The notes under the pieces: generated by a model | The model's input: the letters and a program-made list of their open reading frames with translations, nothing else | The model's database searches: none | What the model was told of the DNA's origin: nothing | Position numbers and translations under genes: made by a program | Assembly (NCBI GenBank): GCA_016215345.1 | Contig: JACRKD010000012.1 | Location: 1-36,227 of the forward strand | Direction of reading: 5' to 3' | DNA: 36,227 nt | DNA from: Candidatus Vogelbacteria bacterium | Lineage (GTDB): Bacteria; Patescibacteriota; Minisyncoccia; Phycocordibacterales; UBA12445 | In this document: positions 3,153 to 32,076 of the stretch, one piece after another | How the letters are laid out: every line of letters begins with the position of its first letter | Numbering within the stretch: position 1 is the first letter of the stretch

Positions 3153-3797
3153 ATGATGGAAAATAACATATTTAGAAACATAGCCATATGGCTTATCATT
3201 GCATTAACAATAGTAATCGTTGTGCTCATATTGGTCGGCCTAAGTAGTGGCCATATACAGGTATCTGGCGACCTTGTTGTCCCCGTAAACTCTTCAGACC
3301 ACATAGTTGGCACATCCACTCCAAAACTTACCATAGTTGAATATGGCGATTATCAATGTCCGGCTTGTGCCGCTTTCGACCCAGTGGTAAGAAAAGTTAT
3401 GGAAGAGTACAGCGACAAAGTTCAACTAGTATCGCGCAACTTTCCTCTAATACAACATAGAAATGCCACCTCCTCGGCCAAGATAGTCGAGGCCGCGGGG
3501 AGACAGGGAAAATTCTTCGAAATGCGGGAAAAAATCTATACCGGCCAGCTTGACTGGGCAAATAGTGACAAGCCAGTCGAGATATTCACTAGATACGCCG
3601 TAGAACTGGGTCTTAATGTTGATAAACTGTTAACCGACAAGGAACTGCCAGAAATTACAAATAAGATAGAAACCGACCTACAGGGAGGAAAAGATTCTAG
3701 CGTAAATTCCACACCATCTTTCTTCCTAAATGGCAAAAAAGTGGCCATGCCTCTTAATTACGAGGAGTTCAAAAAAATTGTCGAAAACAATCTATAA
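3153..3797 (+). CDS. membrane-anchored DsbA-like thiol:disulfide oxidoreductase
   Basis: 214 residues: a signal-anchor helix (about 10-31), then a thioredoxin-fold domain outside the membrane. The active site is C69-P-A-C72 in DYQCPACAAF, and a cis-Pro loop lies near STPSFFLNG. This matches the DsbA/Thioredoxin_4 family that introduces disulfides into secreted proteins. The next gene encodes VKOR, the usual partner that reoxidises such a protein, and the frames overlap by about 20 nt. The start may be either of two adjacent ATGs. It probably serves Cys-containing secreted proteins, including those of the copper module. Confidence 0.9.
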   Translation: MMENNIFRNIAIWLIIALTIVIVVLILVGLSSGHIQVSGDLVVPVNSSDHIVGTSTPKLTIVEYGDYQCPACAAFDPVVRKVMEEYSDKVQLVSRNFPLIQHRNATSSAKIVEAAGRQGKFFEMREKIYTGQLDWANSDKPVEIFTRYAVELGLNVDKLLTDKELPEITNKIETDLQGGKDSSVNSTPSFFLNGKKVAMPLNYEEFKKIVENNL

Positions 3798-4224
3798 AAT
3801 CCTGATAACGGTACTCCACCTTCTGCCCATTGCCGGATTCACTGACGCAACTTATCTCACAGTTGAACACTATTCAGGCGGAAACATCATGTGTGTTATA
3901 TTTCAAGGATGCGATATCGTTAACACCAGTAAATACGCCGTGATAATAGGCACACCCATCGCGCTTTTTGGTATGGTCTACTACTTCACACTCATAATTC
4001 TGGCCTCTATATACTCAAGTACTGGCAAACGAGAGTTTCTACTGACAATATTTATGCTCTCCGGCCTAGGATTTATATTTTCTATTTATTTAACCTACCT
4101 TCAACTTTTCGTTATTAACGCCATCTGTTTTTATTGCATCATTTCAGCGGGCATAACAACGACCATCTTTGTCTTAAGTGGCTATCTGCTCACAAAAAAC
4201 TTATCCACAGGTTATCCAAATTGA
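3778..4224 (+). CDS. VKOR family protein (DsbB-like quinone-linked oxidant)
   Basis: I choose TTG at 3778 (MSKTIYKILITVL) instead of the ORF-track ATG at 3730. A GAGGAG site lies 10 nt before it, and the longer start adds a non-membrane leader inside the dsbA-like gene. The 148-residue product has four membrane helices, the loop cysteine pair C39/C45 (MCVIFQGC) and the catalytic C117-F-Y-C120. Family knowledge: bacterial VKOR passes electrons from DsbA-like proteins to quinone. Its overlap with the DsbA-like gene supports one two-component disulfide pathway. Confidence 0.85.
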   Translation: MSKTIYKILITVLHLLPIAGFTDATYLTVEHYSGGNIMCVIFQGCDIVNTSKYAVIIGTPIALFGMVYYFTLIILASIYSSTGKREFLLTIFMLSGLGFIFSIYLTYLQLFVINAICFYCIISAGITTTIFVLSGYLLTKNLSTGYPN

Positions 4225-10478: not shown

Positions 10479-10931
10479 CTACCTCTGAAATTCTACCTCA
10501 AATGGATACATACCCATCCCGCAACTTCCCCATAACACACCGAAGGGCTGAACACCAAGATCAATATCTGTGCTTCCCGTTTGCGGAAGTATTTTGCTGA
10601 ATCCCAAGCTTGGAATAATGACCGCCGCCGAACAGTCAAAAGTGCCGTTTGTATTAATTCGCAAAACTGTCGGCATATCGGCTTTCGCGATACTCCTATA
10701 CGGTAGATATCCACCCTTGGCCCGGATTTCAACTATCTGACGACCGCCCACCAAGGAGACATTATCACCCGTAGTCGCGGAAGAAAAACCACTGCTGTCC
10801 CCTCCGCTAGAATTAACGAAGGCAATAGCGCCGACGACGATCAGCCCGGAAATTAAAACTGACACAACCACAGATTTCATCCCGCTAGGTACGCCAACTC
10901 CGTCTCCTAATTTTTTTTTATTTTTCGTCAA
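10479..10931 (-). CDS. membrane-anchored cupredoxin-like protein (copper efflux cluster)
   Basis: 150 residues: a basic N-terminus, one membrane helix (about 19-42), a Ser/Gly linker, then a cupredoxin-type beta-sandwich from about residue 65. Potential copper ligands are the Cys in TFDCSAAV and the C-terminal CGMGMYPFEV, the Cys and Met positions of type-1 or Cu(I)-binding cupredoxins. It follows the HMA-TauE gene by 3 nt and copA by one gene, so it is probably an extracytoplasmic copper acceptor working with CopA. Confidence 0.72.
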   Translation of the reverse strand: MTKNKKKLGDGVGVPSGMKSVVVSVLISGLIVVGAIAFVNSSGGDSSGFSSATTGDNVSLVGGRQIVEIRAKGGYLPYRSIAKADMPTVLRINTNGTFDCSAAVIIPSLGFSKILPQTGSTDIDLGVQPFGVLWGSCGMGMYPFEVEFQR

Positions 10932-10934
10932 ATT

Positions 10935-11957
10935 TTAAAAGTTAAAAACCGGAGGGAAGAGCCCGATCACAACCAAACTATTGATAATATTAAACAAGGC
11001 AAACAAGATAACTATAAGACCGGCGGTTTTAAAGAAAACCCCAGACCCGGAGCTACCCTTGATACTAAAAGAACTAAAACTTATTAAAGCCAAAACCGGC
11101 AGGGTCCCAAGGGCGAATGATAACATCGTTAATCCGCCAGAAAGAAAACTCCCTGCCGACAGCGTATAAAGTTGCATCGATTGTGTAAACCCGCATGGCA
11201 GAAAAAAAGTTGCGATACCAACCAAAAAAGGTGTAAACGTGTGATTAAAATTAGCAACTCCGATCGCATATCTGGAAATAACCTTCGGCATGCCGATTTG
11301 GAAACGTTTCGCAAGGTGAAAGGTATCTAACAAATTTACCCCCATTATTAACATAACCAGACCGACAAAGAAATTCAGAAGGAATGTCATGGTCGTATTC
11401 AAAACGAAGGCAGAACCCAGAGCGCCAATCATGCCACCGAGAATAAAAAACGAGGCAACGCGACCGATATGGAATAGAAGTTGCGGCCTCCATTTATCTC
11501 CCTCTTTGGCAAATGTAGCCGACATAGACAAGAGAAGTCCTCCGACAACCGCCATACAAGTTGAGAGAGAAGCGACCACCCCGATCATAAAAACCCCTCC
11601 GTAAGAAAGTTCCCCGCTTCCTATTAAATTTAATAAACCGGCTTTCTGTAGCAAAACAAACAACGCAATAAATACCGTAGCTATCGGTATCGCAATCTTG
11701 AACTCTGACCAATTCACTTCCTTTATTGGTCTTGCGATAGACAAGGAGTACCCGTGCTTTCGTAACTTATGCGAAAGTTCCATGGCCACGGCTTCCGGTG
11801 ACCTACCTCCAAAATTACCAGTTACTACGACAGAGTGGTCTTTGAGACTAGACTTAGCACTCGTGATATAAGATACACCTCGAAGTTCATTCTCGATTAA
11901 AAGTACGCACAACTTGCAGTGCATTCCAGCGACATAAAACGTAAAAGTTTGTTCCAT
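10935..11957 (-). CDS. HMA domain fused to TauE/SafE (CcdA/DsbD-like) transporter
   Basis: 340 residues. An N-terminal heavy-metal-associated domain (about 1-68) carries GMHCKLC with C14 and C17. It is followed by a linker helix and about seven membrane helices of the UreH/TauE-SafE/DsbD-like type, with SLSTCMAVVGGLLLSMS and FFLPCGFTQSMQLY, where Cys residues sit in helices at membrane level. Related fusions lie beside copper ATPases in many bacteria and probably move copper or electrons. It starts 4 nt after copA's stop and precedes the cupredoxin, giving a compact copper operon. Confidence 0.85.
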   Translation of the reverse strand: MEQTFTFYVAGMHCKLCVLLIENELRGVSYITSAKSSLKDHSVVVTGNFGGRSPEAVAMELSHKLRKHGYSLSIARPIKEVNWSEFKIAIPIATVFIALFVLLQKAGLLNLIGSGELSYGGVFMIGVVASLSTCMAVVGGLLLSMSATFAKEGDKWRPQLLFHIGRVASFFILGGMIGALGSAFVLNTTMTFLLNFFVGLVMLIMGVNLLDTFHLAKRFQIGMPKVISRYAIGVANFNHTFTPFLVGIATFFLPCGFTQSMQLYTLSAGSFLSGGLTMLSFALGTLPVLALISFSSFSIKGSSGSGVFFKTAGLIVILFALFNIINSLVVIGLFPPVFNF

Positions 11958-11961
11958 ATTC

Positions 11962-14196
11962 CTAACTATTTAGTCTAAACCTGTTTAGAAGTAGCGAGTT
12001 GCCCACAACAGAGACAGAACTTGTAGCCATGGCAACGGAGGCAAAAATCGGGTTCATCAATATCCCCCAAATAGGATAGAGTATCCCCATCGCAACAGGT
12101 ATCAGGAGCACATTGTACGCGAATGCCCAGAAGAGATTCAATTTGATCGTTCGCATAGTCCTCTTTGAAAGTAATATAGCGCCGGCCACTGTTCTCAAAT
12201 CTTTGTTGATCAAGGTTATATCGGCCGCCTCAATCGCGACATCCGTTCCTGTGCCCATGGCGATACCGACATCTGCCGCAACCAGAGCCGGCGCGTCATT
12301 TATTCCGTCGCCAACCATAGCGACTATTCTGCCCTCGGCTTGGATTTTCCTCACCTCTGCCTCTTTTTCTTGGGGCAAAACTTCAGCCAGCACTCTTTTA
12401 ATCCCAACTTGTGAAGCTATCGCCGTAGCCGTCCTCATATTGTCTCCGGTTATCATAATAGGTTCTACACCCATCCCTATCAACATAAGAATCCCGGCCT
12501 TCGATGACTCTTTGACTGTATCGGCAACGGCAATTAGTGATTCCAGGTTACCATCGATAGCGAGCATCATTACCGTTTTCCCCTCGCCTTCTAACCTTTC
12601 GACCTCTGCCAAATTATTGCCGAGCGAAACAGTTTCTTTGTCCATCAACCTCTTATTACCCAAAATAACACGTCTACTGTCCAGCACCCCTTCTACTCCG
12701 TGGCCGGGAATAGCCCTAAACCCTTCAGCCCTAACTAACGCAATGTTTTCCGTCTCTGCTTTACTCACAATACTTTCAGCCAGTGAGTGTTCCGAGCCTT
12801 TTTCCAAAGATGCGGCAAATTTGAGCGCCTCATCATGGGAAACGCCACCGACCGTTATTATATCCGTCACCTCCGGTTTGCCTTTTGTTAGAGTTCCTGT
12901 TTTGTCAAAAATTACAGTAGTCACCTTATGAGCGGTTTCTAAACTCTCCGCATCTTTAATCAAGATTCCACTCTCCGCGCCCTTGCCCGTTCCAACCATT
13001 ATAGCTGTCGGCGTCGCGAGCCCCATAGCGCAAGGGCAAGCGATTATAAGCACGGCGATCATATTAAGCAGCGCGTAGAGAAGCGCCGGTGCTGGTCCCC
13101 AAACATACCAACCAACGAAAGTAACAATGGACAACATTAAAACTATCGGTACAAAATTGGCAGAGACCAGATCGGCCAATCGCTGTATTGGCGCCTTACT
13201 CCCCTGCGCGTCCTCAACCAATTTAATGATTTGCGCGAGCATGGTTTCGGATCCAACCTTAGTGGTCTTAAAGGTAAAACTGCCGTTCTTGTTTAATGTC
13301 GCCCCGACAACAGTATCCCCGACAGTTTTGTCCACAGGCATACTCTCACCGTTTATCATGGACTCATCTATTGACGACTCACCTTCTAAGATAACCCCAT
13401 CAACAGGAATCTTTTCTCCGGGACGCACACGGATTACATCTCCTATCAACACATCTTTTATCTCTATATCAATCTCCTTGCCATCTCTCAAAACCCTAGC
13501 GGTCCTTGCTTGAAGGCCGATAAGTTTTTTAATCGCTTCAGATGTTCCCGCCTTGGCCTTAGCTTCGAAGTAACGACCGAGAAGAATCAAGCCAATAATG
13601 ATTGTAGATACATCGAAGTAGGGCATCGGATCAATTCCTATCTCTTGAACAACTTTCGGAAAGACCGTAACAAAAGCTGAATAGAGATACGCGACGGTCG
13701 TACCAATAACAACTAGAGTGTCCATATTGGCCGTTCTGTGCTTCAAGGCTGGAATTGTCGCTCGGTAAAACGCAAAACCTGCCCAGAACTGCACCGGGGT
13801 CGCCAAAATTAATTGCACCCAAAATTCTCGCAAAATTTTCGGCGCCGTCTCCATAAGTCCGGGGAAACTACCCCAGAGAATTAACGCCCCAAGTGTCAAA
13901 CTCACAATAACTTTAAATACAAGAGAATTTAGTTCCCTTAATTTTTCCTGTTTTTCTTCATCTTCTGATTGAAGCTCCTCACCAATCATCGCCTCATATC
14001 CAACATTTGAAACCGCAGAACTTATGTGTTCATCCGTAACCAAAGCTGGATCGTAATCAACGGTCGCCTTAGCACTGGCCAAATTTACAGACGCGATAGA
14101 AACCCCTGGAACTTTTTTAAGCGACCCTTCGATCATGGCCACGCACGACGCGCAGTGCATCCCCTTAATCGAAAAAGTTTTTTTGATATTGGCCAT
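11962..14196 (-). CDS. copA: Cu(I)-exporting P1B-type ATPase
   Basis: 744 residues. One HMA domain (about 4-70, GMHCASC with C15/C18), eight membrane helices, actuator GESMPVDK, the transmembrane copper motif CPC ([13 protein letters not shown], near 388), phosphorylation site DKTGTLTKG (near 430), GDGIND hinge (near 630), and C-terminal YN and MxxSS copper-site motifs ([13 protein letters not shown]). All point to Cu(I) export. Oddly, the SEHPLA motif of the nucleotide domain reads SEHSLA, keeping the His but losing the Pro. It is the first gene of copA-HMA/TauE-cupredoxin; no CsoR-like operator is visible in the 18 nt upstream, so it may be read from the methyltransferase transcript. Confidence 0.95.
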
Positions 14197-16147: not shown

Positions 16148-16176
16148 ATTATATAGCCATATTATTTTTTTAACAA
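16148..16176 (-). promoter_or_regulatory. leaderless-type promoter before the frameshifted gene and methyltransferases
   Basis: TTGTTA, 17 nt, TATAAT, then 6 nt to the ATG at 16141. It overlaps the 3' end of the RhuM-Fic gene. It likely drives the frameshifted gene, both methyltransferases and perhaps copA. Confidence 0.45.
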
Positions 16177-17127
16177 CAATAAAATCAATCCGATAATTCG
16201 GTCTTTATGCGATGGATCACTTTCAGCAACAAGAACGGTAAGTGCTGTAAGCGCGGAGGGGGTTAATTTAGACGTATCCAGGATATTAGCTTGCTTTAAA
16301 AACCAGACGAATGCAAAAGCGCCCGATCGCTTATTACCGTCGGTATAAGGATGATTCTTCACCATAAAATACAAAAGGTGTGCGGCTTTTTCTTCTACGG
16401 TCGGATAAAGTTCATTACCGCCAAAGGATTGCATTACGTTACCAACAATTCCCGCGACCGATCCCGCGCTCCGCTCATGACCAAATATTTCTGTCGCTTC
16501 ATCTTTTCCGATTAAAGTTCGACGTAGTTCCTTCAACCCTTCCGATACATTGGTAACGGTAATATCGACTTTTTTCTTTGTCAGTTTACCTTTTGGTGAA
16601 CGCTCCTTATCGTATGCATCAAGCGAGATCCATGTATCTGCAAATAGAGTAATTAGTTCAACCACATCTTTCGGATTAATCGAGGAACATGAAGGCAGAA
16701 GTTCCTTAACATCATCAACCATTCTCAAAAACTGCGCATAATTTTTCGCAACACGGCTTTTGTTTATTGCGAACCCATCCACAATATAGTTTCGTAATGT
16801 CTTCGTCGCCCAACGTCGAAACTCTATCGCGACCCTTGAATTTATCCTGTACCCAACACCCAAAATTACGTCGAATGAATAGAGGGTTAGCGGTTTATCG
16901 GAATTTGCATTATGCATTTTTTGCATATTGCTTTTCTCATCAATTTCACCATCTTTAAATATGTTATGAATATGACGAGACACTACCGACTGATCCACAC
17001 CAAAAAGATCTACAATCTGTGCCTGTGTAGCCCATATGGTCTCATGCGAAAAATCCCCGCGAAGTTCGATCGCACCATTCTTCGCCTGATATATAATCAC
17101 CCCTTTATTTTTCTGTGTGTTTTTCAT
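16162..17127 (-). CDS. RhuM-type protein with C-terminal Fic/Doc domain
   Basis: Start at ATG 17127 (MKNTQKNKG), 7 nt after a TAGAAT -10; the track's TTG is 6 nt earlier. About 321 residues. The N-terminal half (to about 130) is the RhuM/virulence-protein domain: IWATQAQIVDLFGVDQSVVSRHIHNIF, YSFDVILGVGYRINS, EFRRWATKTLRNYIVDGF. The C-terminal half is a Fic/Doc domain with HPYTDGNKRSGAFAF (near 257), the nucleotide-transfer loop. The combination is widespread in accessory DNA; the target is unknown, AMPylation or phosphorylation of a host protein being the family activity. It is a single-gene unit next to the cupredoxin end of the copper operon. Confidence 0.85.
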   Translation of the reverse strand: MKNTQKNKGVIIYQAKNGAIELRGDFSHETIWATQAQIVDLFGVDQSVVSRHIHNIFKDGEIDEKSNMQKMHNANSDKPLTLYSFDVILGVGYRINSRVAIEFRRWATKTLRNYIVDGFAINKSRVAKNYAQFLRMVDDVKELLPSCSSINPKDVVELITLFADTWISLDAYDKERSPKGKLTKKKVDITVTNVSEGLKELRRTLIGKDEATEIFGHERSAGSVAGIVGNVMQSFGGNELYPTVEEKAAHLLYFMVKNHPYTDGNKRSGAFAFVWFLKQANILDTSKLTPSALTALTVLVAESDPSHKDRIIGLILLLLKK

Positions 17128-17134
17128 CCTCAAG

Positions 17135-17162
17135 ATTCTATCACATTGTTCTACTCAACAAT
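17135..17162 (-). promoter_or_regulatory. leaderless-type promoter of the RhuM-Fic gene
   Basis: Extended -10 TGATAGAAT with core TAGAAT at 17135-17140, then 7 nt to the ATG. A weak -35 ATTGTT lies 16 nt upstream. It overlaps the stop of the cupredoxin gene, so it lies inside the tail of the copper operon. Confidence 0.38.
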
Positions 17163-17513
17163 TATTTTTCCATGATACATATTCATCCCGCAGGAGTAAG
17201 TAAATTCGCCTATTTTGTTTGGCGTGATTTGGATAAAAACTTTTTGATTGAGGGGCAAAATCTTACGGATATTAAAATCTCCAAACACCACCTCCTCCAG
17301 ACACCCGGTCGGATCAGTACGAGTGAAATTAAGCGTAGTCGTCTTTCCCACTGGCACAGATATAACCTCTGGGTTATATCCTCCCTCCACCTTTATATCA
17401 ATAGAACCGGAAACCGCCACCGCCTTTTTATCTTTTTTATTCATAAAAAACCAATAAACAAAAACTATTGCTACTAATCCCACGACTATAACCAAAATTT
17501 TATCCGGAGTCAT
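17151..17513 (-). CDS. membrane-anchored cupredoxin-like protein, last gene of the CsoR operon
   Basis: 120 residues: N-terminal helix (about 5-24), a short lysine-rich cytosolic patch placement (NKKDKK) after it, then a cupredoxin domain starting VEGGYNPEVISVPVGK. Potential copper ligands are the Cys in DPTGCLEEVV and the C-terminal CGMNMYHGKI. It is related in layout to the 150-aa cupredoxin of the copA operon (both end C-G-M-x-M-Y). It is likely an extracytoplasmic copper binder. It lies 36 nt after the 87-aa membrane gene, and the operon seems to end here; no terminator is obvious. Confidence 0.75.
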   Translation of the reverse strand: MTPDKILVIVVGLVAIVFVYWFFMNKKDKKAVAVSGSIDIKVEGGYNPEVISVPVGKTTTLNFTRTDPTGCLEEVVFGDFNIRKILPLNQKVFIQITPNKIGEFTYSCGMNMYHGKIIVE

Positions 17514-17549
17514 TGTATTTTTTATAAAGTTATAAAAGGCAGTCCCGTG

Positions 17550-17813
17550 TTACTGCTCGATACTAGAATTGTGCATCCAAACATAGTACCAACCAAAAAA
17601 CCAAGCTCCAATAAATACATAGACCGCTCCGAGCAAGAAACTGCCAAGGTCTAACCAAGTAAATCCCGGAAGTGTTTCAAAAAGTAAATGGTGTAATTTC
17701 ACTGCTTCCACGCTACGAAGAGGCAAAAGGCCGCCCAAAACACATAGCGTATAAACAATTTCTCCACCCAAAACGCACTTCCACACATACGATTGAAAAT
17801 TTAATTTCCCCAT
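17550..17813 (-). CDS. small two-helix membrane protein (DUF5676-like)
   Basis: I choose the inner ATG at 17813 (MGKLNFQSYVWK); the longer ORF adds a basic leader. 87 residues with two membrane helices (about 12-30 and 52-78). The C-terminal helix SFLLGAVYVFIGAWFFGWYYVW recalls the DUF5676 small membrane proteins often found beside copper genes; this match is from memory and is tentative. A PxR-SVEAVKLHHLLFE segment between the helices has adjacent His residues. It is the tenth gene of the CsoR operon. Confidence 0.62.
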   Translation of the reverse strand: MGKLNFQSYVWKCVLGGEIVYTLCVLGGLLPLRSVEAVKLHHLLFETLPGFTWLDLGSFLLGAVYVFIGAWFFGWYYVWMHNSSIEQ

Positions 17814-17866
17814 ATTTTTATAATTATTTAATAATCTATCTCGCCCGCGCAAAGCTACCTTGTGCG

Positions 17867-18622
17867 CTAAACATACCCCCTCCCCCTATGTGCTATTATA
17901 GCATGTCCAGCATATGAGATCATAACCCCAAGAGCAACAACAGACACAAACAGTCCGAAACCTTCATTATACGGGTCGCTGAACAATCCAACATCAGAGT
18001 GGGGAATCGAAATTGAAAGAATGAAATAGGTTCCAAGAGTAATCGCCCTCGTCTGAAGCCATCTTTCTCTATCAACAAACGCCACGACGAGCGCGGACAG
18101 AAGTACGGTGAGATGATGAATGGAGCTTAGAGTATAATTCAAATAAATAAACACCCAATTCCAAATAGTATAGCCGATAATCCACGCTAGGGACATTCCG
18201 TCCCAATGAACGTCTTTGTATTTTCCGTCGGTACCCAGATGAATAGTATCCACCCTATTCAATGTAAGAATTACCAAGAGACCGGCCACCGCATTAAGAT
18301 AGTTCGCAATATTGCCAGCCGAAATGTCCTTAATAACCGCCTCAAGAATATTGGCAACAAGAAATAGATAGATAGCCCATCGACCAAAACTTGTACGTCC
18401 GAGACTAGTAACCCTAAACAAAACAATCAAAACAATGCCCGCCATAACGGAAAATCCCTTAACCCACGGGAACCAACCCAAAACTCCTGATGATTCCCAA
18501 TAAGGAATAAGCAAAATTGGAATAACCGTAAATGTAACCAACGTTAATTTTGGACAACGACGAAATATCTCTTCCATCAGAAGTAAAATAATAAATATAA
18601 ACAAAAAATACAGTAAGGTCAT
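17867..18622 (-). CDS. polytopic membrane protein, DUF5692-like
   Basis: 251 residues with about seven or eight membrane helices and very short loops. Features are WESSGVLGWFPWVKGFSV, WAIYLFLVANILEAVIKD, and a WIIGYTIWNWVFIYLNY helix rich in Trp and Asn. I believe this is the DUF5692 family of uncharacterised bacterial membrane proteins, but cannot confirm it here. No redox Cys is present in the helices. It lies 23 nt after the Gly/Met-rich gene and belongs to the CsoR operon; its role in copper handling is inferred only from that. Confidence 0.7.
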   Translation of the reverse strand: MTLLYFLFIFIILLLMEEIFRRCPKLTLVTFTVIPILLIPYWESSGVLGWFPWVKGFSVMAGIVLIVLFRVTSLGRTSFGRWAIYLFLVANILEAVIKDISAGNIANYLNAVAGLLVILTLNRVDTIHLGTDGKYKDVHWDGMSLAWIIGYTIWNWVFIYLNYTLSSIHHLTVLLSALVVAFVDRERWLQTRAITLGTYFILSISIPHSDVGLFSDPYNEGFGLFVSVVALGVMISYAGHAIIAHRGRGYV

Positions 18623-18645
18623 AAAAATCCCTCCTATATCACGTT

Positions 18646-19194
18646 TTACTTCTTCGAAAAAACTTTACGGCCTAACCAAACGACGGCCAAAACTAAAAGT
18701 ACTGTGACTAGAATTTGGTAGATTAACCCGAACCAATACATACCAGTCGATGACCCGCCCCAATTGCCCATCATACCGTAGCCACCATATCGAGATCCGT
18801 ATCCACCCATCATGCTTCCATATCCTCCCCAGCTACCCATCATTCCATATCCGTAATTAGAAACGCCCGTGCTGTCGTAACCTGTACCCAAAAATTGCTT
18901 ACCCATCTGAATATGCATAGCCCGCTCACCTGTCTCGCCAAATCTCGCAACTAAGGATTGATTCATGGCCTCATGCCCCGCCACCATCATAAGGCCCATG
19001 GCATACTCCCCCACTAGCTCAAACTGCTCATCGTTTAGTGAAGAGTATTGAAGCGTTTTGGCCTGAACTTGCTCTACGATGGCCCGACCCTCCGCCTCCT
19101 CTTCGGCTACCGAGGCCGCGAAAGCCACAGACGATCCCATCGACACGGCTATTAGTAATATCCCCGATAAAATTGCGATATCTTTTTTACTCAT
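18646..19194 (-). CDS. secreted/anchored Gly-Tyr-Met-rich protein, probable metal binder
   Basis: 182 residues: signal peptide (about 1-30, VAFA), an acidic helical region with LMMVAGHEAMNQSL and MHIQMGKQ, then a Gly/Tyr/Met-rich region (about 110-145: GYGMMGSWGGYGSMMGGYG) and a C-terminal membrane helix with a basic end. The Met and His clusters fit Cu(I)/Ag(I) binding outside the membrane, as in periplasmic Met-rich copper proteins. No family recognised. It is 44 nt after the 47-aa gene in the CsoR operon. Confidence 0.75.
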   Translation of the reverse strand: MSKKDIAILSGILLIAVSMGSSVAFAASVAEEEAEGRAIVEQVQAKTLQYSSLNDEQFELVGEYAMGLMMVAGHEAMNQSLVARFGETGERAMHIQMGKQFLGTGYDSTGVSNYGYGMMGSWGGYGSMMGGYGSRYGGYGMMGNWGGSSTGMYWFGLIYQILVTVLLVLAVVWLGRKVFSKK

Positions 19195-19238
19195 ACCAAT
19201 AAAATTATTTTTGTAAATCTAACTATAATTGTATCATT

Positions 19239-19382
19239 TTAATGACAACATGAGTGATCTTTTTGATGCTCGTCATTTTTGAGCGAACTCTTTTTCTCTT
19301 CACATGACCCGTGTCCGCGCCTCACCATCCACAAATGACTTAGAACACAGAGCCCAAGCAATATCCACAATATATAATCCAT
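19239..19382 (-). CDS. 47-aa membrane protein with His/Cys tail (absent from ORF track)
   Basis: Read directly from the sequence: ATG at 19382 to TAA at 19239, 47 residues. One hydrophobic helix (MDYILWILLGLCVLSHLWMV), a basic stop-transfer RRGHG, then a hydrophilic tail with C-E-E-K-K and the ending HQKDHSCCH. It resembles DUF2933-type mini membrane proteins found with copper genes, but is shorter. The His/Cys cluster predicts metal binding on the cytosolic side. It lies 18 nt after the stop of the 304-aa gene and 44 nt before the next gene, filling an otherwise empty 200-nt gap in the operon. Confidence 0.65.
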   Translation of the reverse strand: MDYILWILLGLCVLSHLWMVRRGHGSCEEKKSSLKNDEHQKDHSCCH

Positions 19383-19400
19383 AATATTATTTTAAGACTA

Positions 19401-20315
19401 TTAAACACTGCAACCACCGCCACTCGCGCCACCACTATCTGGTTTGGTCACTGCCGATTTTATTTTGGCAAATCCTCCTCCGCTGGAATAATCGAACCCC
19501 AAGACCTCCCTAGGAGAAACATCCGCCCAGTCAATTCCTCGACCTTGCATATATGTCGCGATAGTTAAGTAGGTGTCCGGAAACCAATAGGAATTAACGG
19601 CAAGCGCGGCCTTATACATTTCATCCTCGCTCACACCTTGCGAGGCCATTAACTCAAGAAGTCCTAGCATAGCCATCCCATGATTACAATCCGGAAAGTG
19701 AGTGGAATTACCGCAACAAGGCCGATAAATATTTCTCGACACCCTCCCTACAAGAGCCTGCTGGTCAGAAGTTAAATCAAAAAACTTATGTTTGCTGTAA
19801 TGGTCCATCGGACTCCCTTTCGAAACAGTCCAACCGCCGGTTGAAGCAAAGTTACTGGCATCGCCGGATGACATCATCTCCCCAGAATCCAAAACAGGAT
19901 TCTTACTAGAAAGACCAAGCGCCCAGAGCAAGTTGAGGAGGTACGGCGCGTTGTCTTTCGTAATTTTAGCGCGGTCAGGATTATCACCAAACAACAACTT
20001 CTTTTCTTCTTCTCCAAGACCACCGCGACCGGCATAAATCTCTTCTAATTTACTGGCATCAATAACCCCCTCTTTAACGAGCCGCGCGCCAAGATCTCCC
20101 CATATAATCGGTAAGACTACGCCAGACGACGGTAAAACATCTCCTTCGGAGACCACAGCCTGTCCAAGAGAAGCGCTAGCTCTATTCCCGCCAGGGGACG
20201 ACACCTCCGCACCGCCCCGCGTGCCGGATAACGCCATAACAAATATTATTATAGTGGCGACAGTTATCGCGATGGAAGACGTAAGACTATCTTTATTTAT
20301 TTCTTCATTTGGCAT
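19401..20315 (-). CDS. secreted/anchored protein with CC-x8-C-x-H motif, unknown family
   Basis: 304 residues: N-terminal anchor helix (about 12-30), a Gly/Ser linker, a first domain with a helix-turn PSSGVVLPIIWGDLG, and a helical second domain. The most striking segment is RPCCGNSTHFPDCNHGMAML (near 198-217), holding three Cys and two His, a likely metal or [haem-like] ligand set, followed by a helix rich in Met and Ala. The C-terminus is GGGCSV, a third isolated Cys. I recall similar proteins only as hypothetical CPR proteins. Sixth gene of the CsoR operon, between two Cys-tailed membrane proteins. Confidence 0.75.
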   Translation of the reverse strand: MPNEEINKDSLTSSIAITVATIIIFVMALSGTRGGAEVSSPGGNRASASLGQAVVSEGDVLPSSGVVLPIIWGDLGARLVKEGVIDASKLEEIYAGRGGLGEEEKKLLFGDNPDRAKITKDNAPYLLNLLWALGLSSKNPVLDSGEMMSSGDASNFASTGGWTVSKGSPMDHYSKHKFFDLTSDQQALVGRVSRNIYRPCCGNSTHFPDCNHGMAMLGLLELMASQGVSEDEMYKAALAVNSYWFPDTYLTIATYMQGRGIDWADVSPREVLGFDYSSGGGFAKIKSAVTKPDSGGASGGGCSV

Positions 20316-20327
20316 GTTTATTTTTTA

Positions 20328-20807
20328 TTAACAACAACCTTTTTTCATCTCTTCGACCAATTTTTCTACTTTTTCTCCGGATCCGTGGAGAAGACTGCGA
20401 GACTGCAACCGATTACTTTTTGTCATATCAATAAATAGGTAAAGTATAACGGCCAAAACAACCAACGCGAACAAAGCGCTAGGCCAATCAAACGATACCA
20501 ACTCATAGGAGAGACCAAACCCCGTCGTCATAAAGAGAGTTTTCCACACAAGTTGTGATCTCCCGCTACGGAGGTTACCCTCCAATTTATACGCGATTCC
20601 CACAATTGAACCACCCATCAAGATCGCGGTCGGCAACTGGAATTCCGTAACGGGAAGCCAGAAGAAAGACATACCTATAAACATTACGATCCATGTGAGA
20701 GATACCCCGACGCACACTGGGCAGATGTTCCATGAAGAAAGTCGGCTAACGGCTCTGGCCGAGAAAGTTACAATCAGGATTGATGATAATACAAGAATTA
20801 TCGTCAT
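20328..20807 (-). CDS. four-helix membrane protein with CPVC and C-terminal CC
   Basis: 159 residues with four membrane helices. A CPVC motif (C29, C32) follows the first helix, NICPVCVGVSLTWI, and the protein ends EEMKKGCC (C158, C159). Two Cys pairs suggest a thiol relay or a Cu(I) site; this would fit a partner of the CcdA-like protein encoded 6 nt upstream. No family recognised. The tail is Lys/Glu-rich and helical, probably cytosolic. Fifth gene of the CsoR operon. Confidence 0.75.
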   Translation of the reverse strand: MTIILVLSSILIVTFSARAVSRLSSWNICPVCVGVSLTWIVMFIGMSFFWLPVTEFQLPTAILMGGSIVGIAYKLEGNLRSGRSQLVWKTLFMTTGFGLSYELVSFDWPSALFALVVLAVILYLFIDMTKSNRLQSRSLLHGSGEKVEKLVEEMKKGCC

Positions 20808-20813
20808 GTTAAT

Positions 20814-21593
20814 TTAGATAAAGAAAATTAAAAATCCAATAATTATCATAATAACACCGGCCCATAATTTTACCTTGCCTATATTTTGAACTTTCCATTC
20901 TTGAATTTTACCCAGGACACTTTTATCCGCGGCGACAAAAAGAACTGCAACAAGCGGAACAATAAGGATCAGATTGTAAAGCAGTAAATAAAGAACGCCA
21001 GAGAAATATGTAACCTGATCGCGGAGAAGTCCTATAACCATGAGATACGGTCCGCCCATGCAAGGGAACTGACAAATGCCAACCAAGAGACCCAAACCAA
21101 ACGCGGCGAATATGGAAGTTCTCTCCATGAGTCGTGCCATCGCGCCGTGAACGCCACTTGGCAGTTTCAACTTGATCGGAAATCTTGGGAAAAATTCATT
21201 TATGATGTTTATAATCCCGAAGACGATAAGCAGTGTGGCACCGAGTTTCCCCATAAAATGCGGGGTGTTAAAGATATGCAAGACCCTGAGAATTCCTAGT
21301 CCGATAAAGAAGTAGGCCGCGAAGATACCAGCAATATACATTCCGCCGATCTGGAGGATTCGCCTTCTCGTCATCTCCACTCCGAAGAGAAAAGCAATTG
21401 TCAGAAGGAGAATAGAAAATGAACACGGATGAACACTATCAAGAAGCGCCGACACGAGGATCAAAGGCAGTAACCACGCCCCTTGATTACTTACCGACCA
21501 AAGGAAAGTTGAGGTTGAAGAACTATTTTTCAGAAAGACAATAGCCACAATCGACACGATAATCACAGCCAAAATTATATTTATTCTTTTCAT
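20814..21593 (-). CDS. CcdA/DsbD-like thiol electron transporter
   Basis: 259 residues with a signal-like first helix and six further membrane helices. The two helix-borne Cys motifs of the CcdA/DsbD family are present: SVHPCSFSILLLTIAFLFG (C57) and GICQFPCMGGPYLMV (near 175-190). Family role: carry electrons from cytosolic thioredoxin to outer-side thiols. Start overlaps nothing; the upstream DUF1573 gene ends 5 nt before. It would reduce the exposed Cys of the other operon products, keeping Cu(I) sites active. Confidence 0.85.
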   Translation of the reverse strand: MKRINIILAVIIVSIVAIVFLKNSSSTSTFLWSVSNQGAWLLPLILVSALLDSVHPCSFSILLLTIAFLFGVEMTRRRILQIGGMYIAGIFAAYFFIGLGILRVLHIFNTPHFMGKLGATLLIVFGIINIINEFFPRFPIKLKLPSGVHGAMARLMERTSIFAAFGLGLLVGICQFPCMGGPYLMVIGLLRDQVTYFSGVLYLLLYNLILIVPLVAVLFVAADKSVLGKIQEWKVQNIGKVKLWAGVIMIIIGFLIFFI

Positions 21594-21598
21594 GGCTT

Positions 21599-22093
21599 TT
21601 ACGGAGTAACCATGGCCTTTATCTCAACTTGGAGCGCGCTGCCATTTTTCTCTGTAACATAGACGAAACGGTCTATAGCACCAACGCCGGCCGGGCCGTG
21701 AGCATTCGGATCGTAAACCACTTCCACCTCCATGGACTCTCCCGACTTAATTGTCTCGTCTGCCGGTGGGACAGCGCCCATTCCGGGCATCCCAAACGGA
21801 CCCTTCTTCGATTCACCCTTAACTATATAAGCCGCTGTACACATGCACGACGTCGTCACACTCGCGATTTTAATTTCATTTTGCGTCGGGTTGTTGATTT
21901 TGAAGACGTGACTCACCTTGCCGTTCGCCATTGAGATTGTGCCGAAATCGTAAAGTTGTTCAGGGGCAGTTATGAGACTCGCCGTATTTTTGTCTTGCGT
22001 CCCAGGTGACGGCTGACTATCAGACTTGAAGGCCAGGACAAAGAACAGGCCCAGAAAAATTATAGAGAATAAAACTATTGCTTTTTTATCCAT
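21599..22093 (-). CDS. DUF1573 domain protein, membrane-anchored
   Basis: 164 residues: an N-terminal helix (about 5-22), then a DUF1573 immunoglobulin-like domain beginning YDFGTISMANGKVSHVFKINN, followed by TTSCMCTAAY with a Cys pair spaced C-M-C, and the closing strand VTEKNGSALQVEIKAMV. DUF1573 proteins are secreted beta-sandwich proteins often near CcdA-type genes. The C-x-C pair could be reduced by the CcdA-like protein encoded next. Third gene of the CsoR operon. Confidence 0.85.
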   Translation of the reverse strand: MDKKAIVLFSIIFLGLFFVLAFKSDSQPSPGTQDKNTASLITAPEQLYDFGTISMANGKVSHVFKINNPTQNEIKIASVTTSCMCTAAYIVKGESKKGPFGMPGMGAVPPADETIKSGESMEVEVVYDPNAHGPAGVGAIDRFVYVTEKNGSALQVEIKAMVTP

Positions 22094-22125
22094 AGAATTA
22101 AACTAAACTGATAAAAACCTTCCAG

Positions 22126-22524
22126 TTAGTTTAAAGATGGGCTATTTTCCAGAAGAGATAACCAATAAAAATCTTTTTGTCGTTTGTTGGAATACGCCAA
22201 GTTAGATCTCGGACCAAAATATATCTGTTGTAATTTCAGCTTTTGTCTCTGATAAAAAATGAGCCCGGTTCCCAGCAGTAAGAACAAGCCTATAATGGAC
22301 AAGGTAAAACCGTATAGAGAGACAATCGTAACATTGGAGAATATGTTGTACGCCCTTATGTGCTGAAGCGCGAAATCGACAGCAGTGGAAACACAAGCAA
22401 CTCCGCTCACTGTAGACGCTATACATCCACCGCCAGAGTGATCCATAGACTCGACCATAGATACAAAACCCAGTATAGTGGTAAAAATAAGAGTTATAAA
22501 TAAAATTGAAGCCAGATATTTCAT
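22126..22524 (-). CDS. small two-helix membrane protein with Cys/His loop
   Basis: 132 residues: signal-anchor helix (about 4-24), an external loop MDHSGGGCIASTVSGVACVS with His and two Cys, a helix segment with FALQHIRAYNIFSN, a second membrane helix (about 65-90) and a basic cytosolic tail. The layout (anchor, D-H, C...C, H, helix) recurs in uncharacterised CPR proteins near metal genes. A metal-sensing or copper-binding loop is inferred. It begins 4 nt after the csoR stop. Confidence 0.7.
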   Translation of the reverse strand: MKYLASILFITLIFTTILGFVSMVESMDHSGGGCIASTVSGVACVSTAVDFALQHIRAYNIFSNVTIVSLYGFTLSIIGLFLLLGTGLIFYQRQKLKLQQIYFGPRSNLAYSNKRQKDFYWLSLLENSPSLN

Positions 22525-22528
22525 CCTT

Positions 22529-22792
22529 TTATCTGCGCTTTAGTCGATAAACTCTAAGTATCTCACCTATCGCTTTTTTCTCACCTCCCGCCTTCATCTG
22601 TCGCAAGGCACAAGTGCTAAGATGACCCTCCACAAGAGAGTCTTCTACGCCGGAAAGCGCTTGTTTAACAGCCGAAGTTTGGGTAATAACATCTATGCAG
22701 TATTTATCATTTTCCACCATATCTTCCAGCCCCCGGATTTGCCCTTCTATGATCTTCAGCCTCCTCAAAATTTTATTCTTCTCCGGATTCAT
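22529..22792 (-). CDS. csoR: CsoR-family copper-sensing repressor
   Basis: 87 residues from the ATG at 22792 (MNPEKNKILRR), chosen because a TATAAT -10 lies 7 nt upstream; the track's longer ATG is inside that interval. The all-helical CsoR/RcnR fold is clear: RLKIIEGQIRGLEDMVE, YCIDVITQTSAV, DSLVEGHLSTCAL. The Cu(I) ligand set C32-H57-C61 of true CsoR proteins is complete (a Ni sensor would have a different set). It should release DNA upon Cu(I) binding. It heads eleven close-spaced minus-strand genes, and its operator is in its own promoter. Confidence 0.92.
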   Translation of the reverse strand: MNPEKNKILRRLKIIEGQIRGLEDMVENDKYCIDVITQTSAVKQALSGVEDSLVEGHLSTCALRQMKAGGEKKAIGEILRVYRLKRR

Positions 22793-22799
22793 TACCTCC

Positions 22800-22829
22800 A
22801 TTATATACCCCCAGAGGGTACAAAGTCAA
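22800..22829 (-). promoter_or_regulatory. csoR promoter with CsoR operator between -35 and -10
   Basis: TTGACT, 18 nt, TATAAT, then 7 nt to the ATG. Inside the spacer is GTACCCTCTGGGGGTATA, with inverted arms TACCC/GGGTA, close in form to known CsoR operators (A/T flanks, C-run and G-run). CsoR bound there would block polymerase, giving copper-induced expression of the whole operon. The GGAGGT between the -10 and ATG is 1 nt from the start and so is unlikely to act as a Shine-Dalgarno. Confidence 0.7.
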
Positions 22830-22842
22830 GTTGTCGCATGAT

Positions 22843-23094
22843 TTATAAATTATTGTATGTATTATCGTTTCTATTATCCACCGAATAAATCTTAATTCCG
22901 ACTGGGGAACTTGACAGGAGTTCGAAGACGACCCTTATCCTCCCGCTTCTTACGCGATACAGATTGCTAAATCCCTTAAGCTTTTTTATGTTTAACATTT
23001 TCCACTCCCCAGAGTATATCTCATCTATCACTCGTTCCATGCAATCCAGTTCCTGCGGGCGGAGTTTGCGAAGAAATTTATCTATTTTATCCAT
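22843..23094 (-). CDS. RelE/ParE-type toxin
   Basis: Start at the ATG 23094 (MDKIDKFLRKL), overlapping the antitoxin stop by 8 nt; the ORF-track start would run deep into the antitoxin. 83 residues with the RelE/ParE core: two N-terminal helices, then MLNIKKLKGFSNLYRVRSGRIRVVFELL, the characteristic 'Y-R-x-R-x-G-x-x-R-V-x-F' strand pair. Catalytic class (ribonuclease or gyrase poison) cannot be decided. It is oriented behind a Phd-type antitoxin, the usual order, and ends about 14 nt before the csoR promoter. Confidence 0.75.
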   Translation of the reverse strand: MDKIDKFLRKLRPQELDCMERVIDEIYSGEWKMLNIKKLKGFSNLYRVRSGRIRVVFELLSSSPVGIKIYSVDNRNDNTYNNL

Positions 23095-23326
23095 TGCGCA
23101 TAGCTCGGAGTCTCTTAAGAACATCCCAACCGTCGATTCCTCTTTTATCAATCTTGGTAAAATCTACAACAGTCTCCCAGCCAGTCCCATCATCGTCCGG
23201 ACTCGAAATTAAAAAAACTGGCTTGGATTTACGGACCACCACATATGACTTCCCCTTCCCCACTTGAGCAATATAATCATTCATATTTAACCTTAGTTCC
23301 TTTAACCCTATGATATTTGTTTTCAT
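23087..23326 (-). CDS. Phd/YefM-type antitoxin
   Basis: Start at the second ATG (23326; MKTNIIGLKELRLN), 7 nt after a TAAACT -10. 79 residues: an N-terminal Phd/YefM DNA-binding fold (IGLKELRLNMNDYIAQVGKGKSYVVVRKSKPVFLIS) and a C-terminal toxin-neutralising tail with acidic and Trp residues (GWETVVDFTKI). It is expected to autorepress at the palindrome over its -35. It forms a two-gene operon with the overlapping toxin. Confidence 0.77.
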   Translation of the reverse strand: MKTNIIGLKELRLNMNDYIAQVGKGKSYVVVRKSKPVFLISSPDDDGTGWETVVDFTKIDKRGIDGWDVLKRLRAMRNG

Positions 23327-23333
23327 GCCCATA

Positions 23334-29349: not shown

Positions 29350-29383
29350 ATCTAACTAAAATTGACGCCCAAGAACATTTAAA

Positions 29384-32076
29384 CTAATTTCCTTCGGTAA
29401 AAAAATTTCTGATCTCCTCCACGACGATAATCGATCCGGCGACCGGAATGACGATAAGCCACTCTGAAACCGACAGTGGTACCGTGTGTAATATTCCCTG
29501 CAAAAATGGGTGTGTGTAAAGCAGAAAGCTGTAATAACATGACAATCACAGTAGCCACAATCAGAAACTTATTGGACAATGGATTCATCTGCAATATAGA
29601 TCTACTTTCAGATCTACAATTCCATGCGTTAAGCCACTGAAAAACAGCAAGGACCGTAAGAGACATCGTCCATGCCTTTGTCATATCGTCCGCGATATAA
29701 TACCTAAATATAAATAACGTGCCAACCGCCATAGGTAACGCCATAAAAAATATTCTCTTCGCCATAAGTTCGTCCACGATCCATTTCTTAGGACGCTCAA
29801 ACCTTCCGCGCATGAGCCCACTCTCCTTGGGCTCCATAGCAAGCGCGACATTGAGAAAACCATCGGTAACAAAGTTGAGCCAGATAATTTGCGCGGCGAC
29901 CAGAGGTAGCGGGTATCCTAAAACAAGCGCGCCGGTAATCACTAATACTTCCCCCATACTCGTGGAGAAAAGATATAAAAATAACTTTTTTGATTGTCTT
30001 ATAAATTCCCCGCCCCTCTTCAGCCGCAGAAACTATCCCAGCGAAGTTGTCATCGAGAAGAACTATATCTGAAGCCTCCTTTGCCACCTCGGTACCAATT
30101 TTCCCCATCGCAACACCGAGATCAGCAGCCACAAGAGATGGGGCATCGTTGACTCCATCCCCTGTCATGGCCACAACTTCTCCTCGGCTACGGAAGGCCT
30201 CTATAATCCGCATCTTATGAGCCGGTGAAACTCGCGCAAAAACACTCGCGTGAACAAGTTTCCTGGCCAGCTCTTCACTGGAGACTCTATCAACATCCTC
30301 ACCCGTAAGAACAATGTCGCCTTGTCGCCAGATATCAGCCTCCTTCGCAATGGCTTCTGCTGTCAAACTATGATCTCCGGTAATCATAACAACACGCATA
30401 CCAGCGTCTTTAACTTTTTTCATTGCTTCCCTAACCTCCGAGCGAAGCGCGTCACTCATGCCAAAAAATCCTACGAATGTAAGCGGGGGTGGAGCAAGTG
30501 GGTTGATACTTCTTTCAACGCCGGAATTCATAGCATACGCCATAACCCGAAAGCCACCCTTAGCTAGTTTGTGAAAAACGGCCTTAAGTTCTTTACGTCG
30601 ATCTTCGCTTAGAAGCAAAACCCCATCCCTCCCGTCCGGACTCGATGAAGCTGGATGCCAAATATTTTTACAAAGTTCCATGACATTTTCCGGCGCCCCG
30701 ACAACCGTAAGGAAATTGTTGTCTCCAACTGAATGAACCGTCGCATGATATTTTCTACTGTAGTCAAAGGGTAGTTCAAAAATCTTCGGCGACTCATCTT
30801 CTAGCACATTATGGTGAAATCCGACTTTTTCTGAAAATACTAGCATGGCGGCTTCGGTAGGGTCTCCGATAATCTTCCAGCTGTCAGTTTCTTTTATAAA
30901 AGAAGATCTGGCATTAGCGCAAAAGGCTGCGATCTTACCGCTAAAGAGGAGTTCGAGATGATTCAACGGATCAATAACCTTGCCTTCAAAAACAATCTCC
31001 CCTTTTGGTTCATAACCATTTCCAGTAATTTCAAAAATTTTACCGTCGACGTACACGCGCTGGAGAACCATCTCGTTTCGCGTAAGTGTTCCTGTCTTAT
31101 CTACGGCGATAATCTTTGTTTGTCCTAAAGCTTCCACCGCCTGAAGGCGCTTTACGAGAACATTCGGCTAACGCCATTTGCTAAAACTAAAGTCGTAACG
31201 ATGGGCAATCCTTCCGGAATTATAGACACGGCAAGCGCGACAGCGACAGTAAACATCTCTCTTAATGATTCACCCGAAAGAATCCCAGCGGCTATCAAAA
31301 CAGTACTGATAATACCGACAGCAATTATAATAAGACGGGGTAAATAATGAATATTGGTTTTCAGGGGAATCTCGGTGTCAATTGAAGAAATCTCCACCGC
31401 TATTTTCCCAATTTCCGTGTCCAGTCCGGTCGCGACCACAACTGCGCTACCGTTTCCGCTCAAAACGTTGGTACCCTTGAACACCATGTTCTTCTGATCT
31501 GCAACGGGGACATTACCACTCGATGCGGCCGGAATAGTCAGTTCCGTTTTGGTTACGGGCTCCGATTCCCCCGTTAAGCTCGCTTCATCAACTTTAAGGG
31601 TACTCGCAAATATAACACGCGCATCAGCCGGGACCTTCTCTCCTTCCCGCAACACAATAATATCTCCGGGCACAACTTCTTTATCTAAAACCGTGATGTC
31701 TTTATCATCTCGCAGTATCGTTGCCGAAGTCTCTGTAAAGTTCTTCAAGGCGAGGAGGGTGTTTTGCGCCCGAACCCTCCCATACCGTACCAACAACAGC
31801 ATTAAAAATGAGCACCGTGAAAATTATGGAGGCATCTACAGTTTCTCCCATGGCCAAAATAGTACCCGCCGCAAGGAATAGAATATAAATAAGAGGACTC
31901 TGAAACTGACGAAAAAAGATAACAAAAACACTGTCCACCTTACCTTCGGGTAGTTTGTTTAATCCGTATTCCTTCAGACGCAGAGCTACTTCCTCGCTCG
32001 TCAAACCGCCTTCACGCGAACGAAGCTTCCCAAGAACATCGAGGGGCGTTCCCGCATACCATGGAATTTGTTGCAT
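29384..32076 (-). pseudogene. P2-type (Ca2+-like) cation ATPase broken by several frameshifts
   Basis: Four ORF-track pieces make one gene of about 2.7 kb, the normal size. Frame 1: GGLTSEEVALRLKEYGLNKLPEG. Near 31771-31776 one extra base, then RAQNTLLALKNF ... SLTGESEPV ... IIPEGLPIVTTLVLANGVSRM. Near 31151-31167 a shift with apparently missing residues, then VKRLQAVEALGQTKII, DKTGTLTRNE, MTGDGVNDAPSL. Near 29972-29984 one extra base, then LFSTSMGEVLVITGALVLG. Near 29489-29499 one extra base, then ILHTVPLSVSEWLIVIPVAG to a stop at 29384. PEGLP and the N-terminal domain point to P2 (Ca2+ or related) ATPases. All signature residues survive, so the decay is recent or is sequence error. Confidence 0.85.

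Follow-up and report, generated by a model that had tools for sequence, protein, structure and literature searches.

A CsoR-headed gene run encoding a candidate copper-linked thiol relay in a Candidatus Vogelbacteria contig

In the Scs (ScsABCD) system, a thiol relay that is linked to copper and has a membrane conduit of the DsbD/CcdA type, ScsC is held reduced by ScsB, and Cu(I) is bound by both proteins (PMC8900818). Islands that join csoR or cueR to copA, for example in Alteromonas, carry genes for a cupredoxin, DUF2933, and ICMT (PMC8478169). Here we describe a minus-strand gene run in a 36,227-nucleotide contig of Candidatus Vogelbacteria bacterium (JACRKD010000012.1, assembly GCA_016215345.1; the whole stretch is called the window). 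The run begins with csoR and contains a core of five genes, which encode a membrane protein with a Cys/His loop, a DUF1573 protein, a CcdA-like protein, a membrane protein with a CPVC motif and a C-terminal CC, and a 304-residue protein with invariant cysteines and a histidine, referred to as the CC-C-H protein. The open-access literature gave no description of CsoR in the Candidate Phyla Radiation or of this gene combination.

By analogy, Scs is the nearest working counterpart of the locus, but the parts differ: here CcdA stands alone, its partner is a DUF1573 or a Sco/TlpA-like protein, and the end protein is CC-C-H. The hallmarks of Scs, a three-domain ScsB and the CxxC isomerase ScsC, were not found, and the run encodes no DsbC-type protein. 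Like the CcdA/DsbD-CcmG-CcmH arm of cytochrome c maturation, the locus has CcdA and, in part of its relatives, a TlpA-like protein, and the outer domain of its end protein may distantly resemble the three-helix domain of CcmH; it differs in its copper setting and in having no Pfam CcmH match, LRCxxC motif, or CcmC/CcmF genes. The likeness to the CcdA-TlpA-ScoI pathway of CuA assembly lies in the reduction of cysteines before Cu(I) binding and in the Sco/TlpA-like CxxxC protein found in a subset of loci; the cytochrome oxidase target, however, was not found in the window's genome. The csoR/cueR-copA islands have the copper ATPase, cupredoxin, and DUF2933 in common with the locus, and in its relatives also ICMT, YHS, DUF305, and DUF5676, but the DUF1573-CcdA-CC-C-H core is lacking in those islands as described.

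We propose, at a probability of roughly 0.6, that the run is a copper-excess operon in which a thiol relay fed by CcdA maintains Cu(I)-binding cysteines on the outside in the reduced state, at the exit of a copper pump. CsoR would repress the promoter until Cu(I) binds, as its family, metal triad, and operator suggest, and CopA would export Cu(I), as expected from its signatures. The CcdA-like protein would draw electrons from cytosolic thioredoxin and deliver them outside, if its presumed direction is right, and DUF1573 (through its CxC), or elsewhere the Sco/TlpA-like protein, would relay them onward to the cysteines of CC-C-H. Reduced CC-C-H, by means of its CC/C/H site and its C-terminal cysteine tail, could then take the Cu(I) leaving CopA or CopB and might hand it over to Met/His-rich proteins and cupredoxins. 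The observed part of this reading consists of gene content and order, the operator, the invariant cysteines, the fusions, and the missing cytochrome c maturation genes; redox-type cysteines are conserved in CcdA, DUF1573, and CC-C-H alike.

The comparison rests on locus sets centred on CC-C-H: 89 loci, 42 additional and mostly more divergent ones, and 16 from other classes of the phylum. Related loci were picked by sequence similarity and not by their neighbours, and their genes were called simply as the longest open reading frames, so that small genes may be missed. The 304-residue protein was present in 13 of 60 relatives, and its neighbourhoods there held the same genes. When 85,462 species genomes were scanned, at least 561 relatives of CC-C-H were obtained, the best 80 of which came almost all from Parcubacteria groups. 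Most loci, in many families, showed the recurring order Cys/His protein, DUF1573 or Sco/TlpA-like protein, CcdA, CC-tail protein, CC-C-H (counts for the 89 loci are given in Table 1). A copper ATPase was encoded in 72 of the 89 loci, as compared with about 3% expected by chance, most genomes having only one or two copper ATPases. The second set of 42 gave similar neighbours (copA in 25, CcdA in 24, and DUF1573 in 20), and in the 16 loci from other classes DUF1573, CcdA, and copA were mostly beside CC-C-H. In all, about 147 loci share the core; the accessory genes differ greatly between them. The copper link, the thiol link, and the conserved co-location that a sequence-only reading of the window had proposed are thereby borne out, since most loci, from many families and classes, have the core genes grouped, usually beside a copper ATPase. 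The window's own CopA has a CPC motif and the exact Cu+ membrane signatures N-x6-YN-x4-P and P-x6-MxxSS-x5-N[ST] (transmembrane helices 7 and 8). One contig labelled Thermodesulfovibrionia (locus L041) also carried a typical Parcubacteria-like cassette, which is probably a binning error.

Within the core, the Cys/His protein stands directly before the DUF1573 or Sco/TlpA-like gene. The DUF1573 protein of the window contains the motifs TSC-M-C, GPFGMPG, and DPNAHGPAG, of which TSCMCT, GPF, and DP-AHGP are invariant in the family. DUF1573 selenoproteins are known in which UGC replaces CGC (PMC9312934), and this fits a redox role of the DUF1573 CxC. Taken alone, the CcdA-like protein of the window gave no Pfam match; the assignment made from the sequence nevertheless holds at the level of the family, as the family profile matches the solved CcdA structure 5vkv at 7e-10 and relatives match PF02683 at 1.2e-10. 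Its cysteines C57 and C178 are conserved in 97% and in all of 78 sequences, respectively. The slot of core gene 4 is otherwise filled by a different CC-tail family, c6 (26 of 89 loci).

These parts would also suit a general repair of outer thiols under copper stress, in which the relay, in the style of ScsB-ScsC, reduces or isomerises copper-scrambled disulfides and carries no copper itself. A CcdA-like conduit and CxC/CxxC proteins do lie in a copper regulon, a thioredoxin-fold protein (Trx127) occupies the same slot in some loci, and ScsB-ScsC is an established thiol pair with a link to copper (PMC8900818). We consider this explanation unlikely, though it is the strongest competitor, since the core in the window is devoid of an ScsC-like isomerase and the most conserved protein is CC-C-H, which is once fused to a copper ATPase and has extra Met and His residues in its cassette type.

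The CC-C-H protein matched no Pfam or NCBIfam model. Residues C200, C201, C210, and H212 are invariant across 131 sequences, and in 125 of these the tail closes with a cysteine (GGCGV, for example). The copper-cassette form typically has M170, H172, H176, M214, and M216, which most fused and Burkholderia forms lack. In one genome, CC-C-H and a CopB-type copper ATPase with an HMBD domain are joined in a single frame of 1037 residues (L161:3653-6766, plus strand), and two genomes have in-frame rhodanese-CC-C-H fusions; an apparent DUF1573-CC-C-H fusion proved on inspection to be rhodanese-CC-C-H. In about ten further cases, CC-C-H is fused to a Cys-rich membrane domain with CPVCG (CPxC). Beside some of these CPxC-fused forms (L124, L126, L127, and L131) we observed a gene for a secreted protein of about 204 residues with GPCCCKCWRW and a C-terminal GCGG, which belongs to no Pfam family. 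Plasmids of Burkholderia contaminans hold a CueR-headed island in which CC-C-H is encoded after a heavy-metal ATPase and which also has genes for DUF2933, CcdA, peroxiredoxins, and ICMT. The Burkholderia and Paraburkholderia CC-C-H proteins start with a twin-arginine-like stretch (a weak match to the Tat-signal family of Pfam), which supports a location of the protein outside the cytosol.

An AlphaFold model of CC-C-H made with 50 sequences had a mean pLDDT of 96 over residues 57-290 and a pTM of 0.93. Its top PDB match by Foldseek was the periplasmic domain of CcmH (2hl7; probability 0.69, TM-score 0.65 on the target, root-mean-square deviation (rmsd) 2.6 over 71 columns, E 1.7). All other PDB matches had an rmsd of about 9 or above, and 2hl7 was the sole low-rmsd match of the first model too. 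When 147 CC-C-H sequences were compared by hhalign with ten CcmH sequences, the result was 64%, above all of 150 column shuffles, other local families giving at most 2.5%; the register was consistent, with RPCC aligned to LRCxxC and GVSEDEM to GKSKKEI. An earlier comparison with 91 sequences had given 13% with one of 60 shuffles better, and a plain hidden Markov model search was not specific. In 12 CC-C-H members there was no match to PF03918 (CcmH) up to E 10, and the LRCxxC active site of CcmH is absent from CC-C-H, which has RPCC...DCNHG instead. Since both the family match and the motif fail, we regard a distant relation to CcmH as plausible, but not membership in that family. The PCYCGC family (PF13798) was also considered as a relative and rejected: it gave no Pfam match, and none was found in 93 genomes in a search without a positive control, which says little.

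No match to the CcmC/CcmF family was over the cut-off in 286 genomes of the class, under conditions where nine control genomes were positive, and PF03918 gave none above the cut-off in 59 genomes of the phylum. COX2 matches in the class were few, mostly short and of cupredoxin size, and some lay beside copA; the window's genome had none. With no cytochrome c maturation and few COX2 proteins, a CcdA-type relay needs another customer, and the neighbouring genes indicate copper. These results also bear on the idea that the relay readies the cysteines of a secreted cuproenzyme or of a CuA-type site, in the manner of CcdA-TlpA-ScoI, which serves cytochrome oxidase. Cupredoxins are indeed encoded close by, and in 14 loci DUF1573 is replaced by a Sco/TlpA-like protein with CxxxC and an invariant His, the family profile of which reaches ScoI (Blr1131) weakly. 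With neither a COX2 match in the window's genome nor c-type cytochrome assembly genes in the class, we judge metal-site assembly to be improbable. A more far-reaching form of the copper proposal is that CC-C-H is a distant CcmH-fold protein shifted from cytochrome maturation to copper, where it would act as an outer Cu(I) acceptor recharged by CcdA at the mouth of CopA or CopB, in a widespread relay coupled to export, in cells lacking cytochrome c maturation; this is a tentative suggestion, and we would sooner expect it to fail than to hold.

The regulator was examined in the same loci. The CsoR of the window matches PF02583 with 87.5 bits (cut-off 22.8), its nearest NCBIfam model is the copper-sensing RicR, and csoR is present in a single copy in the genome. 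The metal triad is C32-H57-C61 (C-H-C), with spacings of 25 and 4 residues, as in Mycobacterium tuberculosis CsoR. A palindrome of the form TACCC-n5-GGGTA occurs near 24 of the 39 csoR starts in related loci, where about 0.8 would be expected, usually between a TTGAC -35 and a TATAAT-like -10. This agrees with the single promoter with a CsoR operator described earlier, the palindrome of the window being likewise placed between the two hexamers. Altogether, 65 palindromes were counted in the loci: 26 at csoR, 7 at the first core gene, and 4 at copA. The metal-site His is kept in all 57 regulators of the loci, either as C-H-C or as C-H-H, and within the same locus C-H-C regulators accompany CPC ATPases (20 to 3) and C-H-H regulators CPH ATPases (17 to 6). 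The third metal-site residue of the regulator (Cys or His) follows the ATPase class, a pattern that favours metal sensing matched to the pump over a persulfide sensor. An assignment of the repressor as CstR, with the rhodanese fusions and thiols handling sulfane sulfur, is thus very improbable: although rhodanese-CC-C-H fusions exist and sulfur genes can be under the control of the CsoR family (PMC10318464), the regulators do not follow the CstR pattern, in which the metal-binding His is lost, and a copper ATPase is present in most loci.

Several observations weigh against the copper proposal. The CPxC-fused CC-C-H forms are mostly without a neighbouring copper ATPase, so a copper role need not extend to all CC-C-H proteins, and about half of the regulators in related loci have C-H-H, which is not the copper triad. 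The likeness of CC-C-H to CcmH is weak (Foldseek E 1.7, hhalign 64%). At the genome level, CsoR presence is independent of the core: among the 286 genomes, the CC-C-H family was found in 85 and csoR in 111, and both in 30, where 33 would be expected. When both were present, however, they lay within 6 kb of each other in 21 of the 30 genomes (<1 expected), suggesting that CsoR is an optional but genuine regulator. The expected adjacency to csoR was confirmed for most genomes with both genes, and a joint occurrence of the two was not. Nor is there support for the supposition that all eleven genes from csoR to the 120-residue cupredoxin form one CsoR-headed system, given this independence, the local nature of DUF5692, which was in none of the other loci examined, and the optional nature of the DUF2933-like, Met/Gly-rich, DUF5676-like, and cupredoxin genes. 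A loose metal-resistance island with no joint mechanism might account for such variable accessory genes and the local DUF5692, but we give it next to no weight beside five core genes in fixed order and several in-frame fusions.

Patescibacteria, a numerous and mostly uncultured group, have very small genomes; even so, about one-third of the sampled genomes of the class keep the CC-C-H family. The copper proposal offers a testable role for this family, an orphan in Pfam and NCBIfam, for DUF1573 beside CcdA, and for the CC-tail proteins, and it can be put to a direct test in cultured Burkholderia and Paraburkholderia, whose plasmids carry relatives. If true, copper export would be tied to thiol electron flow by means of cytochrome-assembly-like parts in organisms without that pathway.

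Table 1. Features of the minus-strand run in the window, with the number of related loci that have the gene.
Feature	Position	Strand	Evidence	Related loci
Promoter	22800..22829	-	-35 TTGACT 22829-22824, 18-nt spacer, -10 TATAAT 22805-22800; top promoter match of the region, 11/12	
CsoR operator palindrome TACCCTCTGGGGGTA in promoter spacer	22806..22820	.	same palindrome at related csoR starts	
csoR	22529..22792	-	PF02583 7.7e-25; ATG taken at 22792, since the listed ATG 22801 falls in the -10	39/89
Core gene 1: membrane protein, exposed loop	22126..22524	-	conserved Cys34, Cys44, His55	63/89
Core gene 2: DUF1573 protein	21599..22093	-	PF07610 2.1e-13	60/89
Core gene 3: CcdA-like protein	20814..21593	-	C57 and C178 conserved	71/89
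Core gene 4: membrane protein, CPVC and C-terminal CC	20328..20807	-		24/89
Core gene 5: 304-residue CC-C-H protein	19401..20315	-	N-terminal anchor, outer domain, tail Cys302; C200, C201, C210, H212 invariant	
47-residue DUF2933-like Cys/His protein (accessory)	19239..19382	-	PF11666 0.00047, just under cut-off	12/89
Met/Gly-rich exported protein (accessory)	18646..19194	-		11/89
DUF5692 membrane protein (local addition)	17867..18622	-	PF18948 6e-29	
DUF5676-like two-helix membrane protein (accessory)	17550..17813	-	PF18926 0.00046, below cut-off	10/89 for this form
120-residue cupredoxin (accessory)	17151..17513	-	PF13473 3.8e-23	19 other loci
CopA, P1B-1 copper ATPase with HMA domain	11962..14196	-	Pfam	72/89
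HMA + DsbD_2 membrane protein	10935..11957	-		22/89
Second cupredoxin-like protein	10479..10931	-	0.002, below cut-off	25/89

All eleven open reading frames reported between 17151 and 22792 were confirmed, with intergenic gaps of 4-53 nucleotides. Beyond 17151 the run goes on along the same strand as far as 10479, with no gap above about 55 nucleotides, and this part holds copA, the HMA/DsbD_2 gene, and the second cupredoxin. The eleven-gene boundary is thus arbitrary, and the sequence-only reading had missed the copper ATPase farther down the run. No convincing internal terminator or promoter was found in the eleven-gene stretch; the predicted sites (12 and 18) were near the level of shuffled sequences (8.7 and 17), so there is no sign that the run is split after csoR. 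The promoter layout is repeated in about 20 related loci. Because the ATG at 22792 is so close behind the -10, the csoR message may be nearly leaderless. In many related loci (L018, L027, L030, L032, L047, L083, L091, L099, and others) csoR likewise starts a few bases past the -10, suggesting near-leaderless messages there.

Past 17151, the order is a RhuM/Fic gene, short open reading frames, two methyltransferases, copA, HMA+DsbD_2, and the cupredoxin. The gene with RhuM-type and Fic domains (16162-17133, minus strand), directly after the 120-residue cupredoxin, is probably an insertion, because only two related loci have it. The two methyltransferases were considered as part of the system but treated as a coincidence, both being rare in other loci; the second is weakly similar (about 28% over 100 residues) to one beside CC-C-H on the Burkholderia plasmids. 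Just upstream of csoR, two small genes (22843-23332, minus strand) look by eye like an antitoxin/RelE-type toxin pair. A cation P-type ATPase at 29379-32076 (minus strand) appears split over several overlapping frames, as a result of either gene decay or sequence errors. At 3153-4224 (plus strand), a DsbA-like thioredoxin gene is followed by a VKOR gene, so that the contig encodes an oxidising disulfide pair besides the reducing CcdA cassette.

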